DNA of 38,503 nt from positions 1-38,503 of the forward strand of contig CANPYC010000017.1 of the NCBI GenBank assembly GCA_947587615.1, written 5' to 3'. Shown here piece by piece: positions 3,128 through 11,120 of the stretch. The stretch is from Candidatus Gastranaerophilales bacterium (GTDB taxonomy: Bacteria > Cyanobacteriota > Vampirovibrionia > Gastranaerophilales > Gastranaerophilaceae). A model generated the notes under the pieces. That model was given only the letters and a program-made list of their open reading frames with translations. It ran no database searches and had not been told where the DNA came from. Each line of letters begins with the position of its first letter. The first letter of the stretch is position 1. A program made the position numbers and the translations under genes.

Positions 3128-4414
3128 TTATTTGTATAGGGATTTTATGTATTTTGCTACACCTTCACCCATTGACATACAGCTTTTTTGAACTCTAAGA
3201 GCGCTATGGGCTTCAAAATCCGCACCTACGATTTTACCTATAACAAAAAGATTATCATAATCAATACTCATTAATGCCTCAACAGGTAGCTCATAGCTTG
3301 GTGTTTCAAGCAAAATTGAAGCGTTTTTTTCGGATGAATGGATGTCTATTGAATAATTTGCGCTCAAAACCGGGTTTTTAAATTTTTTATTATTTAAAAT
3401 ATCTTCTTTTTTATAGATATATTTGGTTTTAACCCTGTTTTGTTCACGAATACCCGTTTGAGTTGCTATATTTGTAATTATTGAATGTTCAAAACCGGGG
3501 AAATATTTTTTTGTAAAGTTATAAATTCTATAAATTGCTTGACGTGCTAAAATCAGTTCATTTGAAGCCATAAAGATATTATCTTTATAATTATCAATCC
3601 TCGGGCAATTAAGCGCAACAAGCCCATCGCCACCCGCAATTGAAAAAATTTGAAAATAGGCTCTATCGGTATTTTTTAAAACACCGTCAACTACTGCTTG
3701 CTTTAAGTATTTATCAATAGCCCAAGTTTTATTTGTATCCCATGTTGAAGCGGTTGTAAAATGAAGTTCGTTTGATGTATTTGTCTCGTCACGATAGGTA
3801 TTGGTAATATTCTCATCTTTATCAACTTCTTTTAAAAATTTACAAAATTTTTCTATATTAACATTTCCTAAGATAAACCTTAAAGTGTTTTGTTGTTTTA
3901 AGTTTGTATCAACTAAAAAAGAACACCCGGCTTTTTTTGAAAATTCCGCTGAACCTGTTGCATCAACAAAATATGTCGAGCTGATTGGTAATGATAAAAA
4001 ACCTGTATCTAAAACAACATTTTTTACTTCATTATCAACGGTTGATATTTTATCAATATTTGCTTCAAATAAGATATCGAGGTATTGTTTTATTTCTTCA
4101 TCAGATAAAATATCATCCAAAACAATTTTCAACAGTTCAGGATTAAACCAACCGTCATTTCCATCTTTATATGTTATTTGAGCGTGATATTTTTTTGCCG
4201 TTTCAACCAGTTTTTTATAATAATCACAGTTTAAATCATTGACGGATGATTTCATAACGGGAACAACGAGCCCTGCGCTCATCAAGCCGCCCAAAAAATT
4301 ATTTTTTTCAACAAGAAGGGTTTTGAGTTTATTTTTTGCACAATTATAAGCACAGGCACAACCCGAAGTCCCCCCGCCTATAATTACAACATCATATTTT
4401 AGATTATTTTCCAT
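3128..4414 (-). CDS. FAD-dependent oxidoreductase (FAD_oxidored family)
   Basis: A soluble flavoprotein with an N-terminal Rossmann dinucleotide-binding motif, VVIIGGGTSGCACAYNCAKN (residues 9-28), then VEKNNFLGGLMSAGLVVPVM, where the flavin-contact GG is followed by a hydrophobic stretch typical of the FAD-dependent dehydrogenase group seen in many anaerobes. A second FAD-contact segment is recognisable as YFVDATGSAEFSKKAG (148-163), and the C-terminal FAD loop as DNLFVIGKIVGADFEAHSALRVQKS. The substrate cannot be told from sequence. It converges with mnmE (18 bases between stops, no clear terminator) and starts leaderless from a good promoter. At 428 residues it looks complete. Confidence 0.85.
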   Translation of the reverse strand: MENNLKYDVVIIGGGTSGCACAYNCAKNKLKTLLVEKNNFLGGLMSAGLVVPVMKSSVNDLNCDYYKKLVETAKKYHAQITYKDGNDGWFNPELLKIVLDDILSDEEIKQYLDILFEANIDKISTVDNEVKNVVLDTGFLSLPISSTYFVDATGSAEFSKKAGCSFLVDTNLKQQNTLRFILGNVNIEKFCKFLKEVDKDENITNTYRDETNTSNELHFTTASTWDTNKTWAIDKYLKQAVVDGVLKNTDRAYFQIFSIAGGDGLVALNCPRIDNYKDNIFMASNELILARQAIYRIYNFTKKYFPGFEHSIITNIATQTGIREQNRVKTKYIYKKEDILNNKKFKNPVLSANYSIDIHSSEKNASILLETPSYELPVEALMSIDYDNLFVIGKIVGADFEAHSALRVQKSCMSMGEGVAKYIKSLYK

Positions 4415-4571: not shown

Positions 4572-4599
4572 GGTTATGATAATGTATATTATGTAAAAA
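4572..4599 (+). other. dif: dif-like site / attL
   Basis: Three blocks line up with the E. coli dif site: XerC arm GGTTATGATAA (4572-4582), centre TGTATA (4583-4588), XerD arm TTATGTAAAAA (4589-4599). The centre is identical to E. coli dif. The inner ATAA and TTATGT arm ends also match, and the outer GGT is kept. This copy has both arms, so it can serve as the working chromosome-dimer resolution site after insertion. Confidence 0.85.
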
Positions 4600-4603
4600 A
4601 ATG

Positions 4604-4612
4604 TGTTATAAT
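4604..4612 (+). promoter_or_regulatory. Extended -10 promoter just inside the prophage left end
   Basis: TG-T-TATAAT (4604-4612) is an extended -10 element with a perfect hexamer 29 bases before the first phage gene, which has its own AGGAG ribosome site. No good -35 box is seen at 17 bases. It belongs to the phage side of attL, so it should drive the VP5-VP3-VP1 genes in both the integrated and the circular form. Confidence 0.45.
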
Positions 4613-4641
4613 AAATTTCATAGATTTTATAGGAGTAAAAA

Positions 4642-4983
4642 ATGTTTGATAATTTAATTTTTTCTGTTTACGATTCGGCTAAAGACATCTATCTAGCCCC
4701 GTTTCTATCAATGTCAACTAAAGAAGCCAAGCGCTTTATTTATCAACAGTTAAAACAATCCCCTGATAGCCTTTTATCAATGTATCGTCATCAATACCAC
4801 TTAAAACAAATAGGCAATTTTAATTCAAGAACTGCTAAGGTTACCGATAATTTAACAAAAGATTTAGGCACTCTTAACAATCTATTTGTTGAACAACAAA
4901 CTGAACTATTAGAAGAGCAAGAAAAAGAACAGGCTAAATTAGAAGCTTTTGAACTTTCAAGGAAGAAGGCATCCAATGGCTAA
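4642..4983 (+). CDS. Gokushovirus VP5/ORF5-like small nonstructural protein
   Basis: 113 residues. The N-terminal half (FSVYDSAKDIYLAPFLSMST, then MYRHQYHLKQIGNFNS at about 47-62) has the layout of the ORF5/VP5 protein of chlamydiaphage-type microviruses: a 'xxVYDxxxxxYxxPF' opening, a helical middle and a 'YxLxxIGxFxxxTG' ending. That family is thought to act in genome packaging or replication control, but its role is unproven. A Gln/Glu-rich coiled-coil-like tail (82-106) is longer than usual for the family. The ribosome site is ATAGGAGTAAAAA-ATG. The 3' end overlaps the scaffold gene start by 8 bases, which implies coupled translation. It is the first gene after attL. Confidence 0.7.
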   Translation: MFDNLIFSVYDSAKDIYLAPFLSMSTKEAKRFIYQQLKQSPDSLLSMYRHQYHLKQIGNFNSRTAKVTDNLTKDLGTLNNLFVEQQTELLEEQEKEQAKLEAFELSRKKASNG

Positions 4984-5458
4984 AAGTAATCAATTTTATA
5001 CAAAATTTAATCCTCCGCCCGTTACTGCCTTAGAACAAAAAAATCCTTCAATGACACAACAATCATTCAGTTATGAAACAGACATAAACAACATGGTCAA
5101 AACTATGGTTGATAAAAATGGTAGACAGCATGCAGTTTCAACTGGTGTTCAATCTAGCATTCCGCCATCATCTGCTATTCCTAAGTACGGTGATTTTACT
5201 ATTTACACTCCTTAAAAAATTAGTGAAGCGAGGCAGCTTTTAGCTGAAGCACAAAGTAAATTTAACTCGCTTCCTTCTTCTTTGAGAGATAGATTTCAAA
5301 ACTCGCCTGAAAAACTCGTTAATTTCGTCCTTGATTCGCGAAATTATCAAGAAGCTGTTAAGCTTGGACTTGTAGCTCCTAAAGCTTCTGAAACAACCGA
5401 TACTCTAAACCCATCAACTGACTTAAAACCTAGCGTGCAAGGTCCTGAGGTGTCATAG
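4976..5458 (+). pseudogene. Gokushovirus VP3 internal scaffolding protein, interrupted by an in-frame TAA at codon 80
   Basis: The start ATG (4976) follows a good AAGGAAGAAGG site and opens MAKSNQFYTKFNPPPV. The scaffold hallmarks are SMTQQSFSYETDINNMVK (about 28-45) and IPKYGDFTIYTP (68-79), then TAA (5213-5215). The same frame then continues without interruption for 79 more residues to TAG (5456-5458): KISEARQLLAEAQSKFNSLP, SSLRDRFQNSPEKLVNFVLD and EAVKLGL, which are the conserved C-terminal scaffold signatures. The whole unit is 160 codons plus stop, the normal family length. One base change explains the break. The internal scaffold is needed to build procapsids, so unless the ochre codon is suppressed, this copy should not make particles. 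The VP1 gene also ends in TAA, which argues against a recoded TAA. Confidence 0.85.
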
Positions 5459-5567
5459 CTAAAAGCTACGACTTCTCACACTGCTTGAAGTCGGTCCGCA
5501 TTCTTCCCACTTGATATATATATGCGGACTGACAGAAACCAGTAAATACAATACTTTTACGTTTCTG
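5452..5567 (+). repeat. Chain of four stem-loops between VP3 and VP1
   Basis: Four inverted repeats follow one another: (1) 5452-5460 with 5464-5472, 9-bp stem with one mismatch and a 3-base loop; (2) CGACTTC 5469-5475 with GAAGTCG 5487-5493; (3) TCGGTCCGCAT 5491-5501 with 5522-5532, 11 bp with one G.T pair; (4) CAGAAAC 5533-5539 with GTTTCTG 5561-5567. Neighbouring arms share bases (1/2 and 2/3), so the foldings compete. The first arm covers the VP3 stop codon. In ssDNA phages such intergenic folds can be complementary-strand origins, packaging signals or mRNA stabilisers; which one applies is not shown. Confidence 0.7.
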
Positions 5568-5591
5568 ACCATAAAAAAAGGAGTTTATAAA

Positions 5592-7238
5592 ATGCCCTCT
5601 AACCAAATGATTAATAGTTATAACCAAGTACCTCAAACCCTAATAAATCGTAGTATCTTTGACCGCTCATTTAAACACTCAACTACTTTAGATTCAGGAT
5701 ATCTTGTTCCAATCTTTACTGATGAAATATTACCTGGTGATACGATTGATTTATCTGCTACATTATTTGCTCGTCTTGCTACTCAAGTAGTTCCCTTTAT
5801 GGATAACGCTTATATTGAATTTCACCTCTGGTTTGTCCCCCGCCGTCTTGTTTGGGACAATTGGCAAAAATTTATGGGTGAGCAATTAAACCCTGGTGAT
5901 TCTATTGACTACCTAATACCTCAAGTTGAATCTCCCTCAAAAACTGGCTGTTTAGAAGGTGAATTACTAACTTATTTAGGTATGCCTATTCGTGTTCCTG
6001 ATTTCAAAATTGACGCTTGTTATCCTCGTTCATACAATCTTGTTTATAACGAGTGGTACCGTTCAGAAATACTTCAAGATTCTGTACCAGTTCCTAAAGA
6101 TGATGGACCTGATGATATTACTAACTACAAGTTATTAAGACGCGGTAAACGTGGTGATTATTTCACAAATGCAACTCCCGCTCCACAAAAAGGTGCTGGT
6201 GTAGAGCTCCCCCTTGGTGGAACTGCTCCAGTCTTTGGTAACGGAATGTCATTAGGTTTGCAGTCATATAAAAACAATCCTCAAGGTTTAGATAAAGTAG
6301 GATTAATTGGTCATAATGACTCTGTAGGTGCCTGGTTTTATGGTTCAACTGGTTCATATGGAAAAATGACATCAGATACTACAGCAGGCGGAGGTAATTA
6401 TAATTCAGCAGGTAAAATTTACGGTGTTACAACAGAGCCCGATAAATCCGGTTTAATTTGTGATTTAAGCACTGCTACAGCTGCAACAATCAATACACTA
6501 CGTCAAGCAATCGCTTTACAACAATTTCTTGAAAAAGATATGAGAGGTGGTACCCGCTATATCGAGTTAGTATTCTCTCATTTTGGTGTTGTTTCCCCTG
6601 ATGCACGACTTCAAAGACCTGAGTTTCTCGGTTCCTTCTCTGCTCATCTTAATCAAAATACAGTTGCTCAAACTTCACAAACAACTCAAGGTGAAAACGG
6701 AAGCCCTCAAGCTAACCTTTCTGCCTATTCAACATTCTCTGTACAAGGTAACAATATAGTTCATTCATTCACTGAACACGGTATATTATTAGGTATCTGC
6801 CAAATAAGAGCTGACTTATCCTATCAATACGGCTGTGACAGAGCCTTAACCCGTCGTACAAGATATGATTTCTTCTGGCCTGAATTTGCTCACTTAGGTG
6901 ATCAAGAAATAAGAAATAAAGAAATTTATGCTCAAGGTAATGAACAGGATGATGAAATATTCGGTTATACTGAACGCTACGGTGAATACAGAATAAAAAA
7001 TAATTTAATTACTGGTCGTCTTAATTCCAGAGCTCAAACTCCTTTGGATGTATGGCATTTAGCACAAAAATTTGCTAAATTACCTGTACTTAATGATGAA
7101 TTTATCCAAGATACACCTGACTTTAAACGTGTTATTGCTGTTCAGGATGAACCTGAGTTTATACTTGACGCAGATTTCCAATACTATCACACACGCCCAA
7201 TCCCTGTATACGGTATCCCTGGTCTTGAAAGGATATAA
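5592..7238 (+). CDS. Gokushovirus major capsid protein VP1
   Basis: 548 residues from the ATG at 5592, chosen because AGGAG lies 8 bases upstream and MPSNQMINSYNQVPQTLINR is the expected N-terminal style; the reading frame is open further upstream but that part overlaps a hairpin region. Family marks: SFKHSTTLDSGYLVPIFTDE with the 'LPGDT' strand, FHLWFVPRRLVWDNWQKFMG, YNLVYNEWYRSEILQDS, KRGDYFTNATPAPQKG, then YIELVFSHFGVVSPDARLQRPEFLGS and the C-terminal RTRYDFFWPEFAHLGDQ. It is the Microviridae eight-stranded jelly-roll capsid subunit. The Gly/Ser/Thr-rich stretch between PAPQKG and LRQAIALQQF sits where gokushoviruses carry the large surface insertion that makes threefold spikes, and is the most variable part. 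It ends 2 bases before the VP2 start. Confidence 0.97.
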   Translation: MPSNQMINSYNQVPQTLINRSIFDRSFKHSTTLDSGYLVPIFTDEILPGDTIDLSATLFARLATQVVPFMDNAYIEFHLWFVPRRLVWDNWQKFMGEQLNPGDSIDYLIPQVESPSKTGCLEGELLTYLGMPIRVPDFKIDACYPRSYNLVYNEWYRSEILQDSVPVPKDDGPDDITNYKLLRRGKRGDYFTNATPAPQKGAGVELPLGGTAPVFGNGMSLGLQSYKNNPQGLDKVGLIGHNDSVGAWFYGSTGSYGKMTSDTTAGGGNYNSAGKIYGVTTEPDKSGLICDLSTATAATINTLRQAIALQQFLEKDMRGGTRYIELVFSHFGVVSPDARLQRPEFLGSFSAHLNQNTVAQTSQTTQGENGSPQANLSAYSTFSVQGNNIVHSFTEHGILLGICQIRADLSYQYGCDRALTRRTRYDFFWPEFAHLGDQEIRNKEIYAQGNEQDDEIFGYTERYGEYRIKNNLITGRLNSRAQTPLDVWHLAQKFAKLPVLNDEFIQDTPDFKRVIAVQDEPEFILDADFQYYHTRPIPVYGIPGLERI

Positions 7239-7240
7239 CA

Positions 7241-8041
7241 ATGTCAATAGGTTCTTCGGTAGCTAATGGTTTATTTGGTCTTGCCTCCGGTTTCCTTGGT
7301 GGTTTCCTCGGTGATTATTCAAGTGCAAAAGCAGCTAAACGTTCTTTTGAATATTCATCTCGCCTTCAAGCTCAACAAAATGCATTCACTGAAAGGATGG
7401 CAAATACTGCTCATCAACGTGAAGTTAAAGACCTTAGAGCTGCTGGTCTAAACCCAATATTATCAGCAACCGGTGGTAGTGGTGCAGCTACCCCTTCTGC
7501 CGGTTCTGCTTCTCTTTCCGTTGATAACTCACATCTTGAAAATGCAGTGGCTACAGCATTAGATTTCAAACGCTTGCGCAATGAAACACAACTCAAAGAT
7601 AGCACAAAAGAAGTTAACGCTTCTACTGTCAAATTAAATGAAGCTAATGAACGTAAGTCAATCTATGATGCTGATACTGCACATGAACAAGCTGCATATA
7701 TTAATGAACAAAACAGACAATTTCAAGTATATGGCCCTCAACTGTCACAACTTCAAGTATTGCAAGGTTTAACAAATATAAAAAATCAAAATGCTGTTAC
7801 AGCTCAACAGGTCAAATTAATGCAATCACAGATTGACAATTACCGCTCATCTACTTGGAGAAATTATAAATCTGCTCTTGGATTTTCTGAAAGTGAATCT
7901 GAAAGTTACAGTACTAACCAAGATGATACTAAGCACCCATTTAGTTTTTCTGCCGGAAAAAGTGGTATTTCATTAACTCCTAGCTATAAATCTGATAGTG
8001 GCGGTTACTCTCGTTCTCGTTCTCGTTCACGTTCTTATTAG
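7241..8041 (+). CDS. Gokushovirus VP2 (DNA pilot / minor capsid protein)
   Basis: 266 residues. A Gly-rich hydrophobic N-terminus (about 7-25, with GxxxG spacing) is followed by the family signature MANTAHQREVKDLRAAGLNP (53-72) and ILSATGGSGAATPSAGSASL. The middle (residues 100-205) is long amphipathic helix rich in Gln/Asn, consistent with the pilot proteins that assemble into a DNA-translocating helical tube. The C-terminus is a run of Ser/Arg dipeptides (SRSRSRSRS), basic and probably DNA-contacting. An AAGGATATAAC site precedes the ATG, and its start nearly abuts VP1. Confidence 0.95.
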   Translation: MSIGSSVANGLFGLASGFLGGFLGDYSSAKAAKRSFEYSSRLQAQQNAFTERMANTAHQREVKDLRAAGLNPILSATGGSGAATPSAGSASLSVDNSHLENAVATALDFKRLRNETQLKDSTKEVNASTVKLNEANERKSIYDADTAHEQAAYINEQNRQFQVYGPQLSQLQVLQGLTNIKNQNAVTAQQVKLMQSQIDNYRSSTWRNYKSALGFSESESESYSTNQDDTKHPFSFSAGKSGISLTPSYKSDSGGYSRSRSRSRSY

Positions 8042-8160
8042 TTAAATATTTTAGCCATTATTATTATTGCTATTATTCCAATAGCATAAAAACCTACAAT
8101 TAATCCTGCAATTATTTTAGCTACTAATATTATAGTTTTTCTTAATTCATTCCAATTCAT
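8038..8160 (-). CDS. Putative 40-residue single-pass membrane peptide on the phage antisense strand
   Basis: On the minus strand an ATG (8158-8160) opens 40 codons to TAA (8038-8040). A GAGG Shine-Dalgarno motif lies 5 bases upstream (GAGG-TATTT-ATG). The product begins MNWNELRKTI and then has about 26 very hydrophobic residues with small-residue spacing (AGLIVGFYAIG), ending MAKIFN: one transmembrane helix with positive residues near both ends. It fills the only sizeable gap between VP2 and the next plus-strand gene and overlaps the VP2 stop. Gokushoviruses normally code on one strand only, so this could be a lysogeny or superinfection gene, a host-acquired small protein, or a chance ORF in AT-rich DNA, which tends to translate as Ile/Leu/Phe. 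Confidence 0.35.
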   Translation of the reverse strand: MNWNELRKTIILVAKIIAGLIVGFYAIGIIAIIIMAKIFN

Positions 8161-8206
8161 AAATACCTCACAGTCTACACACACATTATAAAGGAGTAAC
8201 AATTTT

Positions 8207-8449
8207 ATGACAACAAGTTACATGATGATACAAAAAAAATTATCACAGATTAACCGTTTATCAGCCCAGAAATCAATCAATCCTTCATTTTTTATCGGTT
8301 ATTTTTTTGATTATCTAAATCATAACTATATTACAAACCTTACTGATAAAGTTTCATTTCAAACATATCAACAATTTTTACTTTTTATTAATTCTTTTTG
8401 TGACTTTGTTTTGGAGGATTTGGACGATGAGCGCCCTTTATCCAAATAA
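8207..8449 (+). CDS. Phage hypothetical protein, 80 residues
   Basis: Opens after AAGGAGTAAC with a 10-base spacing. Predicted mostly helical, with aromatic-rich middle (PSFFIGYFFDYLNHNYI) and an acidic end (VLEDLDDE). No family recognised. It sits at the head of a block of four overlapping small genes between VP2 and VP4, the place where gokushoviruses carry poorly conserved accessory ORFs. The 3' end overlaps the next gene by 23 bases. Alternative starts exist at Met6 or Met7 but are farther from the ribosome site. Confidence 0.55.
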   Translation: MTTSYMMIQKKLSQINRLSAQKSINPSFFIGYFFDYLNHNYITNLTDKVSFQTYQQFLLFINSFCDFVLEDLDDERPLSK

Positions 8450-8609
8450 ATCAGACAGCATTAAAGAAAAATGCTCAAAAGCTTGTTATTTATGGCTTAT
8501 CGATTATATTTCAGATACTGTCTTCGTTGACTACCTCACGCAGTTTAAAAATGATTTTCAAAATCATAAACTTGATAATTCAGAGATTTTAAGAAGGTTT
8601 CAAAAATGA
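8427..8609 (+). CDS. Phage hypothetical protein, 60 residues
   Basis: I chose ATG 8427 (MSALYPNKSDSIKE) over the upstream in-frame ATG at 8400 because TTGGAGGA lies at about the right distance before it. The product is a small, probably helical soluble protein with three aromatic clusters and charged ends (KEKCSKACYLWLIDYI). No family recognised. It overlaps the preceding gene by 23 bases in another frame, and its stop overlaps the next start as ATGA, so translation is likely coupled. Confidence 0.55.
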   Translation: MSALYPNKSDSIKEKCSKACYLWLIDYISDTVFVDYLTQFKNDFQNHKLDNSEILRRFQK

Positions 8610-8776
8610 AATATACCAACCGTATAAAATCTTTTAAATTATTAAAACAGTTTACTAGTTTAGTTCGTTTATTTGTTGATGGAATTATAACTGAAACTGA
8701 ATACAGGCATAATTTACATTTTCTTTGCAATGAGTATCGCACATTAAAACTTAATGAAAGGATTTATTTAAAATGA
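8606..8776 (+). CDS. Phage hypothetical basic protein, 56 residues
   Basis: Begins with ATGA overlapping the previous stop (8606-8609) and ends with ATGA overlapping the next start (8773-8776). The product starts MKYTNRIKSFKLLKQFTSLV and is basic and probably two helices. AAGAAGG lies about 10 bases before the start. No family recognised. The tight ATGA links on both sides make it a genuine coding unit even though it is short. Confidence 0.55.
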   Translation: MKYTNRIKSFKLLKQFTSLVRLFVDGIITETEYRHNLHFLCNEYRTLKLNERIYLK

Positions 8777-8886
8777 GAAGAGCTCTAAACAATTCCGCTA
8801 GTCGCGGTTACTTCACAAAAACAGCAATGTATACCAAGTCAATTAATTTGTTTACCTCACCTATGAGAGGTGGTTATCGTATGTAA
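8773..8886 (+). CDS. Gokushovirus VP8-like small basic DNA-binding peptide
   Basis: 37 residues, strongly basic. The sequence FTKTAMYTKSINLF followed by SPMRGGYRM matches the pattern 'F-x-x-TA-x-x-T-x-x-x-N ... RGG-x-R' seen at the end of the small ORF8/VP8-type protein that gokushoviruses encode near VP4. By analogy with the phiX174 J protein it probably coats or compacts the packaged ssDNA; that role is inferred. An AAAGGATTT site sits upstream in the tail of the preceding gene, which it overlaps by 4 bases. Confidence 0.7.
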   Translation: MRRALNNSASRGYFTKTAMYTKSINLFTSPMRGGYRM

Positions 8887-8914
8887 TTATATCCTATCTT
8901 CACAAATTATTTTA

Positions 8915-8968
8915 GGAGATGTTTTTCTCCCCCGGCTCTTATAGCCGGGCTTGTTTTTACAAGCCGGC
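8915..8968 (+). repeat. GC-rich competing hairpins before the Rep gene
   Basis: In an AT-rich phage this patch is conspicuously GC-rich. Hairpin A: GGAGA 8915-8919 with TCTCC 8926-8930. Hairpin B: CCCGGCT 8931-8937 with AGCCGGG 8943-8949. Hairpin C: GCCGGGCTTGT 8944-8954 with ACAAGCCGGC 8959-8968, one bulged G and a TTTT loop. B and C share 8944-8949, so only one can form at a time. More complementary sequence follows (GCCGTCGGC, 8971-8979). It could be an attenuator or terminator for upstream genes, or a replication or packaging structure. Confidence 0.65.
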
Positions 8969-9005
8969 ATGCCGTCGGCAGGACTTAAGAGGAGTTTAAT
9001 TTATT

Positions 9006-10112
9006 ATGGTATGTTTCCATCCGCTTGAGTGTTATCTTCCTTTAGACTATGATAAGGAATTTAAAAGACACTTGATATTTTCGCCTGAAAAAATTTATAG
9101 ATTTAAAAAGGCTACTATACGTAAATTTGAAGACATTGGCTTAATGCCACGTTTTCACGACGATAATTTTAAAATTTTTGATGAAAAATCACGTTTTCCT
9201 GAAATTTACTTAACTAAAGAAGTTACTGATGACTTACCTAACGGACTTATAATTCAAGTCCCTTGTAATAAATGTATCGGCTGCAAATTAGATTATTCCC
9301 GCCGTTGGGCAACTCGTGCTATTAATGAAGCCTTTTTATACGACCACTACAGAAATTGTTCATTCCTGTCTTTAACATTTAATGAGGAAAATTTAAACCG
9401 TACTAATCTAGGTTATTCAGTTGATAAAGCGTTCTTTAAATCCTGGGTTAAGCGCCTTCGTTTCGCTATAAAAGATAAATATAATGTTGAGTTTAGACAT
9501 ATGTCTTGCGGTGAATACGGCTCAAAACGTGGTCGCCCTCATTATCATATGTTAATCTTCGGCTTTGATTTCCCTGACAAATACATATTTAAAGTAAATC
9601 GCACAAAATACGGTGATGTTATCAATTATTATCGTTCGCCCTTTCTTGAATCACTCTGGCACCTTCCAGGCAGAACTGACACAGCTGGTTATTGTATTAT
9701 TGGTAATGTAACCTTTGAAAGTTGCGCCTATGTCGCGCGCTATGTTACAAAAAAAATGCAAGATAAAACTTTGTACGGTGACCAGCAACCTGAATTTCTT
9801 TCAGTATCAAGGATGCCCGGTCTAGGATATGATTACTGCGTTAAATACTTAAAAAATATTTTTGAAACACGTAAAGTCGCTTTACCTAACGGTTTCAGTT
9901 CCCCTGTACCTCGCTATTATGAGTCAGTATGTGAAAAATTAGACCCTGAACTATATTACACTTACAAAAGTGACAAATTTAATGAATTTTATAAAGAAAT
10001 GTTAAGAAAATTTAATGAAAAATCTAACCCTGACAAAAAAAGATTACAAGCCTTAGAAGAGCTTCACAGTATGCGTTTAGATAAATTAATACGTACGTAT
10101 GAATACTCTTGA
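9006..10112 (+). CDS. Gokushovirus VP4 rolling-circle replication initiator (HUH endonuclease)
   Basis: 368 residues, start ATG 9006 after AAGAGGAGT. It nicks the viral strand at the origin and becomes covalently joined through tyrosine. Visible motifs: a Cys cluster PCNKCIGCK (86-94) with SRRWATR after it, LSLTFNEENL (121-130), CGEYG (168-172), the metal-binding HUH-type motif GRPHYHMLIFG with His179 and His181, and the twin-tyrosine catalytic motif YVARYVTKK (Tyr242 and Tyr246, spaced YxxxY as in phiX174 protein A). Length and motif order fit gokushovirus VP4. Its 3' end overlaps a small ORF that runs into the right attachment site. Confidence 0.96.
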   Translation: MVCFHPLECYLPLDYDKEFKRHLIFSPEKIYRFKKATIRKFEDIGLMPRFHDDNFKIFDEKSRFPEIYLTKEVTDDLPNGLIIQVPCNKCIGCKLDYSRRWATRAINEAFLYDHYRNCSFLSLTFNEENLNRTNLGYSVDKAFFKSWVKRLRFAIKDKYNVEFRHMSCGEYGSKRGRPHYHMLIFGFDFPDKYIFKVNRTKYGDVINYYRSPFLESLWHLPGRTDTAGYCIIGNVTFESCAYVARYVTKKMQDKTLYGDQQPEFLSVSRMPGLGYDYCVKYLKNIFETRKVALPNGFSSPVPRYYESVCEKLDPELYYTYKSDKFNEFYKEMLRKFNEKSNPDKKRLQALEELHSMRLDKLIRTYEYS

Positions 10113-10328
10113 TAAATTATATAATCACGTCATGTTTAGTCAACATGTTAATTTAACATCTTTAAAAGACCTCTTATCCAGTTATAACGGTGCTTTTGAT
10201 ACTTTAAATGTATATTATGTAAAAATCTGTTTGAACAAAACGGAAATATCAAAATACCTAAAAATTATTTAACCCGCCTTAAACGGCATTTTGGAAGCCA
10301 TGAATATATATCTTACTTAAAACTTTAA
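10099..10328 (+). pseudogene. Small ORF running through attR, frame broken inside the repeat
   Basis: From ATG 10099 (overlapping the VP4 end by 14 bases) the frame reads MNTLDKLYNHVMFSQHVNLT and on through the attachment site, stopping at 10270-10272 after 57 residues. The tail after the site looks unnatural in that frame. A different frame (10224-10328) gives NLFEQNGNIKIPKNYLTRLK and RHFGSHEYISYLKL, which looks like real protein. One extra A in the five-A run at 10221-10225 would join both into one 76-residue protein. The left repeat has seven As in the same place. Either the ORF is frameshifted, or the right half is a remnant of an earlier related insertion. No Shine-Dalgarno site; coupling to VP4 is possible. 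Confidence 0.4.
10198..10225 (+). other. attR: half dif-like site
   Basis: Centre TGTATA (10209-10214) and XerD arm TTATGTAAAAA (10215-10225) are identical to attL, but the XerC-side arm is GATACTTTAAA (10198-10208), which matches the dif XerC arm poorly. This is expected if the incoming phage site had a good XerD arm and a poor XerC arm, so that the intact dif was rebuilt on the left. Confidence 0.8.
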
Positions 10329-10430: not shown

Positions 10431-11120
10431 ATGGAAAATATACAGCAAAATAAATCAACCGATAAAGTTAGACTTATGCTGATAGATGATCACAAATTAT
10501 TTCGCTGCGGCATAAAGTCTTTATTTGAAAACTCAAACAATATATGCGTTATAGCTGAAGCTCAAAACGGGAAGGAAGGAATTAACAAAATTCTTTCTCA
10601 AAACCCTGATGTTGTTTTATTGGATTTAGAGCTTGGTGACATTAACGGGTTAGAGCTTATTGAGAAGGTATCCTCTCAAAAACCGAATGTAAAATTTGTT
10701 ATTCTAACTTCGCACTTGAACGAGCATGTTATAAATAAAGCAATGAAGCTTGGAATTTACGGCTATATTTTGAAAGATATCAATTCAGAATTTCTTGATA
10801 TGATTGTTAAAACAGTTTCAAGCGGGGCAATGTGGATTGATAAAAAAGCGGTGCAAATTTTAAGAGAATTAAATCCAAATGTTATACCAAATACACAAAT
10901 GAGCCGCTCTAACTTTAAATCAACCCATGCGAATTTAACCGCAAGAGAATACGAGGTCTTAAAACTTGTGGTGGATGGGAAATCTAATCAGCAAATTGCC
11001 GATAAATTGAATATCTCCGAGCATACTTCAAAAGCCCATGTATGTAATATTATTCAAAAGCTCGTTGTTGATGACAGAACGCAAGCCGCTGTTAAGGCAA
11101 TTAGGGAAGGAATTGTTTAA
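10431..11120 (+). CDS. NarL/LuxR-family two-component response regulator
   Basis: 229 residues. The receiver domain (13-130) has the acidic pair D19/D20, phospho-acceptor D65 in VVLLDLELGD, T93 in FVILTS and K114 in YGYILKD, so all switch residues are present. The C-terminal LuxR-type helix-turn-helix (about 165-225) reads LTAREYEVLKLVVDGKSNQQ then IADKLNISEHTSKAHV. It should therefore be a phosphorylation-controlled DNA-binding regulator. No histidine kinase is nearby, so it is an orphan. An AATAAGGAG site gives a firm start. It is the first host gene right of the prophage, and the rhodanese-like gene 153 bases downstream is preceded by repeated operator-like boxes that it might bind (inference). 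Confidence 0.9.
   Translation: MENIQQNKSTDKVRLMLIDDHKLFRCGIKSLFENSNNICVIAEAQNGKEGINKILSQNPDVVLLDLELGDINGLELIEKVSSQKPNVKFVILTSHLNEHVINKAMKLGIYGYILKDINSEFLDMIVKTVSSGAMWIDKKAVQILRELNPNVIPNTQMSRSNFKSTHANLTAREYEVLKLVVDGKSNQQIADKLNISEHTSKAHVCNIIQKLVVDDRTQAAVKAIREGIV

Follow-up and report, generated by a model that had tools for sequence, protein, structure and literature searches.

A gokushovirus, a small phage with single-stranded DNA, that lies in dif, the chromosome-dimer-resolution site, of a gut Gastranaerophilales bacterium has very probably entered it by XerC/XerD recombination, without an integrase of its own. The window in which it is found, meaning the whole stretch of DNA analysed, is the complete 38,503-bp contig C17; the genome to which it belongs amounts to 2.13 Mb over 81 contigs and is 99.6% complete. 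The insertion and its boundaries, the empty sites of relatives, the recurrence of such insertions and the matching attP in free relatives can all be read from the sequences themselves.

A gokushovirus between two copies of dif

The element, 5,626 bp, stands between two copies of a 19-bp repeat (window 4572-10225). The repeat, AATGTATATTATGTAAAAA, occupies 4581-4599 and 10207-10225; the longest word common to the two flanks is 19 bp, whereas 1,000 dinucleotide shuffles of these flanks gave at most 15, and the 16-bp core of the repeat is matched, with one mismatch allowed, at just two places in the whole 2.13-Mb genome, namely attL and attR. The left arm of attL is of the host type seen in all empty sites, and the site has the makeup of a chromosomal dif: 28 bp, two 11-bp arms about a 6-bp spacer, conserved, and one per chromosome. 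The XerC side of attR diverges strongly from the consensus. Within the window's genus, phage-derived left arms share 5-7 of 11 positions with the host consensus and right arms 9-11 of 11, the left arm being taken as the XerC side by its likeness to E. coli dif, an arm assignment from sequence likeness only.

The genes run in the order VP5-VP3-VP1-VP2-VP8-VP4 (Table 1). A sequence-only reading of this DNA had placed a six-gene core between the repeat copies and seen no phage integrase there. Its coordinates were exact and the core genes found Pfam and PHROG matches, VP3, however, being interrupted; those ORFs of the element that were scanned against Pfam and PHROGs gave neither an integrase, as that reading had held, nor a repressor. 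VP1 is about 48-52% identical to records named gokushovirus, and this gokushovirus-type VP1, together with genes for VP2, VP3 (interrupted), VP4, VP5 and a VP8-like protein, places the element in Gokushovirinae by gene content.

Table 1. Features of the prophage, its attachment sites and the neighbouring host DNA (window coordinates).
Feature	Position	Strand	Evidence or remark
Host FAD-dependent oxidoreductase, left neighbour of dif	3128..4414	-	PF12831 E=8e-69; in 28/28 congeners
TCGATWGGTWNYNRTAA-like copies	3791, 4566	+	Towards dif; 3791 off by 1-2 bases
attL, complete 28-bp dif	4572..4599	+	XerC-side arm GGTTATGATAA, spacer TGTATA, XerD-side arm TTATGTAAAAA
VP5-like nonstructural protein	4642..4983	+	PF20577 E=5e-11, phrog_1670
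VP3 internal scaffolding protein gene, interrupted	4976..5458	+	PF09675 E=2e-7; alignment with free-phage VP3
VP1 major capsid protein, 548 aa	5592..7238	+	PF02305 E=8e-157; phrog_514 E=1e-182; PDB 8des major capsid protein E=8e-160
VP2 DNA pilot protein	7241..8041	+	phrog_8693 E=5e-25
Small ORF	8207..8449	+	Small ORFs at same position in free relatives
Small ORF, 56 aa	8606..8776	+	VP8-like start overlapped by ATGA
VP8-like basic protein, 37 aa	8773..8886	+	Matches same ORF in free relatives L025, L027, L028
VP4 replication initiator	9006..10112	+	PF23343 E=1e-14, phrog_942 E=1e-80
attR	10198..10225	+	Phage XerC-side arm GATACTTTAAA, spacer TGTATA, XerD-side arm TTATGTAAAAA
Host LuxR-type response regulator, right neighbour of dif	10431..11120	+	PF00072, PF00196; 80-89% identical in congeners
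TCGATWGGTWNYNRTAA-like copies	11125, 11178, 11227, 16023	-	Towards dif; 16023 off by 1-2 bases

Occupied and empty dif sites across the order

The response regulator adjoining the prophage is 80-89% identical to genes of MAGs, most of them titled Candidatus Gastranaerophilales, an order which NCBI places in the Cyanobacteriota/Melainabacteria group. This gene and the FAD oxidoreductase flank the same junction in all 28 genomes of the genus (27 related genomes and the window's own; the host genomes are MAGs). In 24 of the 28 the junction is empty, consisting of a single dif free of phage; in the other four (the window genome, G202, G171 and G383) the gap measures 5.8-6.0 kb and a microvirus lies between two dif copies. 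GATAATGTATATTATGTA is invariant in 24 aligned sites, comprising 23 empty ones and the joined flanks of the window genome. At the 24th empty site, that of G089, the single dif stands beside an unrelated extra gene, a 465-aa ORF between the response regulator and the empty dif (L108, 2946-4343).

These results bear out the earlier reading on several points. It had named Gastranaerophilales as the probable host, as the identities of the neighbouring regulator indicate; it had taken the left repeat copy for dif, and the site is found at the same place in 28 of 28 congeners, its core having no further match in the genome; and it had expected an empty dif at the same spot in phage-free relatives, which 24 of the 28 congeners provide. 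Neither marker genes placing the contig elsewhere nor phage-free relatives lacking a dif were encountered. Taken at sequence level, the insertions and the empty sites fix where dif lies in this non-photosynthetic relative of the cyanobacteria.

Of 383 genomes of the order searched for Phage_F, 12 have a microviral capsid, and in nine of these a gokushovirus is fused to host DNA; G383, which lies outside the 383 and was added separately, brings the number to ten. A dif-type site is present in every one. Both copies are seen in nine, 4.6-5.6 kb apart, and in each of the nine the dif repeat, usually only 15-21 bp, is the longest flanking repeat; in G343 the contig stops inside the phage. The FAD gene adjoins nine of the ten phages, the exception being G032, from another family. 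The phage spacer is that of the host genus (TGTATA or TAGATA): in the genus of G066 the phage has TAGATA, and the congener G083, whose genome gave no phage capsid match in the Phage_F search, has the same spacer in the site adjoining its FAD gene. None of the three unfused microvirus MAG contigs (G316, G358, G211) has a dif, and two have repeated ends, as in free circles. Other genomes gave weak VP1-alignment matches, about 75 residues long and lying within longer ORFs, which were left out of the phage count, and a VP1 search of the genome contigs collection found no related loci.

Since most VP1 identities among the ten fused phages fall at 27-53%, two pairs being closer (66% and 76%), several phage lineages use the dif site; in the VP1 tree, the deep forks of which are poorly resolved, the ten are scattered over several places. 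Loci L107 (G383) and L044 (G171) hold a second, distant gokushovirus lineage in the same dif as the window phage, with VP1 31-32% identical to the window's; its three closest free relatives, bajarodmic viruses 902, 440 and 879, are without dif. In L044 attL and attR (6561 and 12085) share 36 bp, reaching well past the XerD-side arm, and the G171 phage therefore carries a host-like flank, perhaps a trace of past imprecise excision or gene conversion.

The surroundings of dif have a feature of their own: a 17-bp motif, TCGATWGGTWNYNRTAA, made up of the left half of dif and its flank, clusters there (Table 1 gives the window copies). It has 75 exact matches in the 28 genomes (about 50 Mb), 15 being dif itself, 58 lying at most 8.7 kb from dif and two elsewhere; the reversed-pattern control gave one match in the same genomes. 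All 58 non-dif copies near dif point towards it, 29 from each side, though they are not independent events, their positions being partly common by descent and some falling within the FAD coding sequence. Other genera show a weaker trend (19 converging versus 6 diverging; reversed control, 3), and in L208 the flanking copies diverge under the orientation assigned. In L175 (8694) the dif arm is TATACTTATAA in place of GGTAGCTATAA, and the flanking copies at -525 and +607 are altered likewise. There is a hint here that one protein binds both the dif arm and the flanking half-sites; the motif may give FtsK its orientation, be a binding site of a Xer protein or help to organise the terminus, and its convergence on dif would fit the location of the replication terminus.

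Free relatives, known systems and the probable route of entry

Closest among phage records, with VP1 62-67% identical, are circular genomes of 5.3-5.6 kb recovered from the faeces of rodents and marmots. The eight free relatives fetched share the prophage's gene order, and all eight have a dif-like site at the VP4-VP5 junction, the very point at which the prophage opens. Bajarodmic viruses 473, 557, 771, 1057 and 1137 and Microvirus mar38 resemble the window phage in gene order, VP8-like protein and VP4/VP5 dif-like site, but are free circles only, with an intact VP3 and no known host. The VP1 tree, its root arbitrary, groups the window phage with dif-bearing gut gokushoviruses at 98/99 support; the larger group around it also holds the Bdellovibrio phage phiMH2K, the deep forks of the tree being poorly resolved. 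When 50,697 phage records were searched with a 30-base dif query, many of the hits were microviruses, although large phages too gave numerous matches by chance. The IMG/VR relatives L015-L024 are 33-50% identical and without dif, and the AATGTATATTATGTAAC pattern occurs in 13 IMG/VR contigs, none with a microviral capsid.

The closest known system is seen in the Enterogokushovirus prophages of Enterobacteriaceae (EC6098 and relatives; PMC7062461), which likewise have gokushovirus genes, no integrase, insertion at the host dif, and an intact upstream dif with a divergent downstream copy. There, dependence on XerC/XerD was shown, whereas the window case is known from sequence; the hosts belong to different phyla; the window circle opens between VP4 and VP5, whereas the enterobacterial prophages start with VP4 (VP4-VP5-VP3-VP1-VP2-VP8); variation in the phage site falls on the XerC-side arm here but on the spacer and XerD arm there; and sizes are 4.6-5.6 kb here against 4.3-4.7 kb. 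With Gastranaerophilales as host and a different prophage gene order, the window phage falls outside Enterogokushovirus. The microvirus proviruses of Bacteroidetes (Krupovic and Forterre 2011, PMC3091885) are also integrated Microviridae without integrase, for which use of the host Xer proteins was proposed, but they belong to another microvirus group and other hosts. The Vibrio phages CTX, VGJ and TLC, too, insert at dif via the host XerC/XerD, but are filamentous phages or satellites of these, and their attP retains the XerC side and diverges on the XerD side, the reverse of the window phage (PMC5357621). An analogy with TLC phage, as having an attP without the XerC arm, was dropped: the review states the reverse.

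By the proposed route, the phage circle would present a dif-like attP between VP4 and VP5, and XerC/XerD would recombine the 6-bp spacers of this attP and the host dif; the whole host dif would remain on the left as attL, a copy with a divergent XerC-side arm would come to lie on the right as attR, and the same kind of recombination would release the circle. XerC/XerD-dependent gokushovirus lysogeny has been demonstrated in E. coli (PMC7062461). We infer catalysis by the host's Xer proteins, reversibility of the insertion and production of virions. The host genome has two XerC/D-type recombinases, both just below the XerC and XerD equivalog cut-offs and above the Xer subfamily cut-off, besides four further phage-integrase-family matches. 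Having no integrase of its own, a dif-like attP and an insertion at chromosomal dif, the element has the characters of an IMEX.

Those four matches, and the 36 bp shared by attL and attR in G171, could be taken to point to homologous recombination or to a recombinase from another element, dif being merely an incidental landing site; but with ten of ten fused insertions at dif, repeats usually so short, and spacers that match by genus, we regard such a route as highly improbable. We give as little credence to an artefact of assembly or binning, in which a free phage circle was misjoined to a host contig at the short dif they share. The host genomes are indeed MAGs, short-read assembly could be misled by a 19-bp repeat, and a 2022 survey warned of such errors for Melainabacteria (PMC9239249); yet independent assemblies from several genera have different phages at the same locus, the host site is found open between conserved genes and both hybrid sites are present, microvirus contigs that are not fused to host DNA have no dif, and the dif-like attP of free phages would be left unexplained.

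Entry by XerC/XerD recombination would be modified, though not excluded, if the prophage were now a dead, domesticated remnant, fixed in the genome and defective. An in-frame TAA interrupts VP3 at residue 80 of 160 (5213-5215), and the 80 codons 3' of it still align well with VP3 of free relatives, a conserved second half that may speak for a remnant. The stop would be either pseudogenisation of the window prophage or an assembly error; because of it, the window copy is probably impaired and may not be a functional phage. Set against this, no other core gene is interrupted, both attachment sites are intact, one stop codon might reflect misassembly, and the window phage is not common to its congeners, its insertion therefore being recent. 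We consider a remnant possible but rather doubtful.

A host for gut gokushoviruses

Gokushoviruses are abundant in animal guts, and a host is known for almost none. Short of culture, few host links are firmer than chromosomal insertions matched by empty sites, and those described here assign to Gastranaerophilales a clade of gokushoviruses from rodent guts as well as several other lineages. The earlier reading had proposed a new host group for temperate gokushoviruses. The host link is borne out by the insertions and empty sites, but the group is not wholly new: a microvirus of Candidatus Melainabacteria is among those listed in the 2022 survey, which distrusted the link, however, every such genome being one contig of a fragmented MAG (PMC9239249). 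Our literature search found gokushoviruses and Melainabacteria named together in that paper only, and no paper naming Gastranaerophilales together with Microviridae. On the sites reported here, the Melainabacteria association is now settled, the host group being confirmed rather than wholly new. What is new is the firm host link, a recurrent site used by multiple lineages, and the assignment of a host to one clade of free gokushoviruses from the gut; systems of this kind were already known.

The host and lifestyle of a phage also become testable from its dif-like site. We suggest, tentatively and at somewhat less than an even chance, that the Gastranaerophilales dif is an attachment site used in common by five or more separate lineages of gokushovirus, whose attP keeps the spacer and XerD-side arm while the XerC-side arm decays, in mirror image of the Xer-exploiting phages described so far, and that integration may be driven from the XerD side. 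If this is true, a substantial share of the dif-bearing gut gokushoviruses for which no host is known would be temperate phages of Gastranaerophilales.
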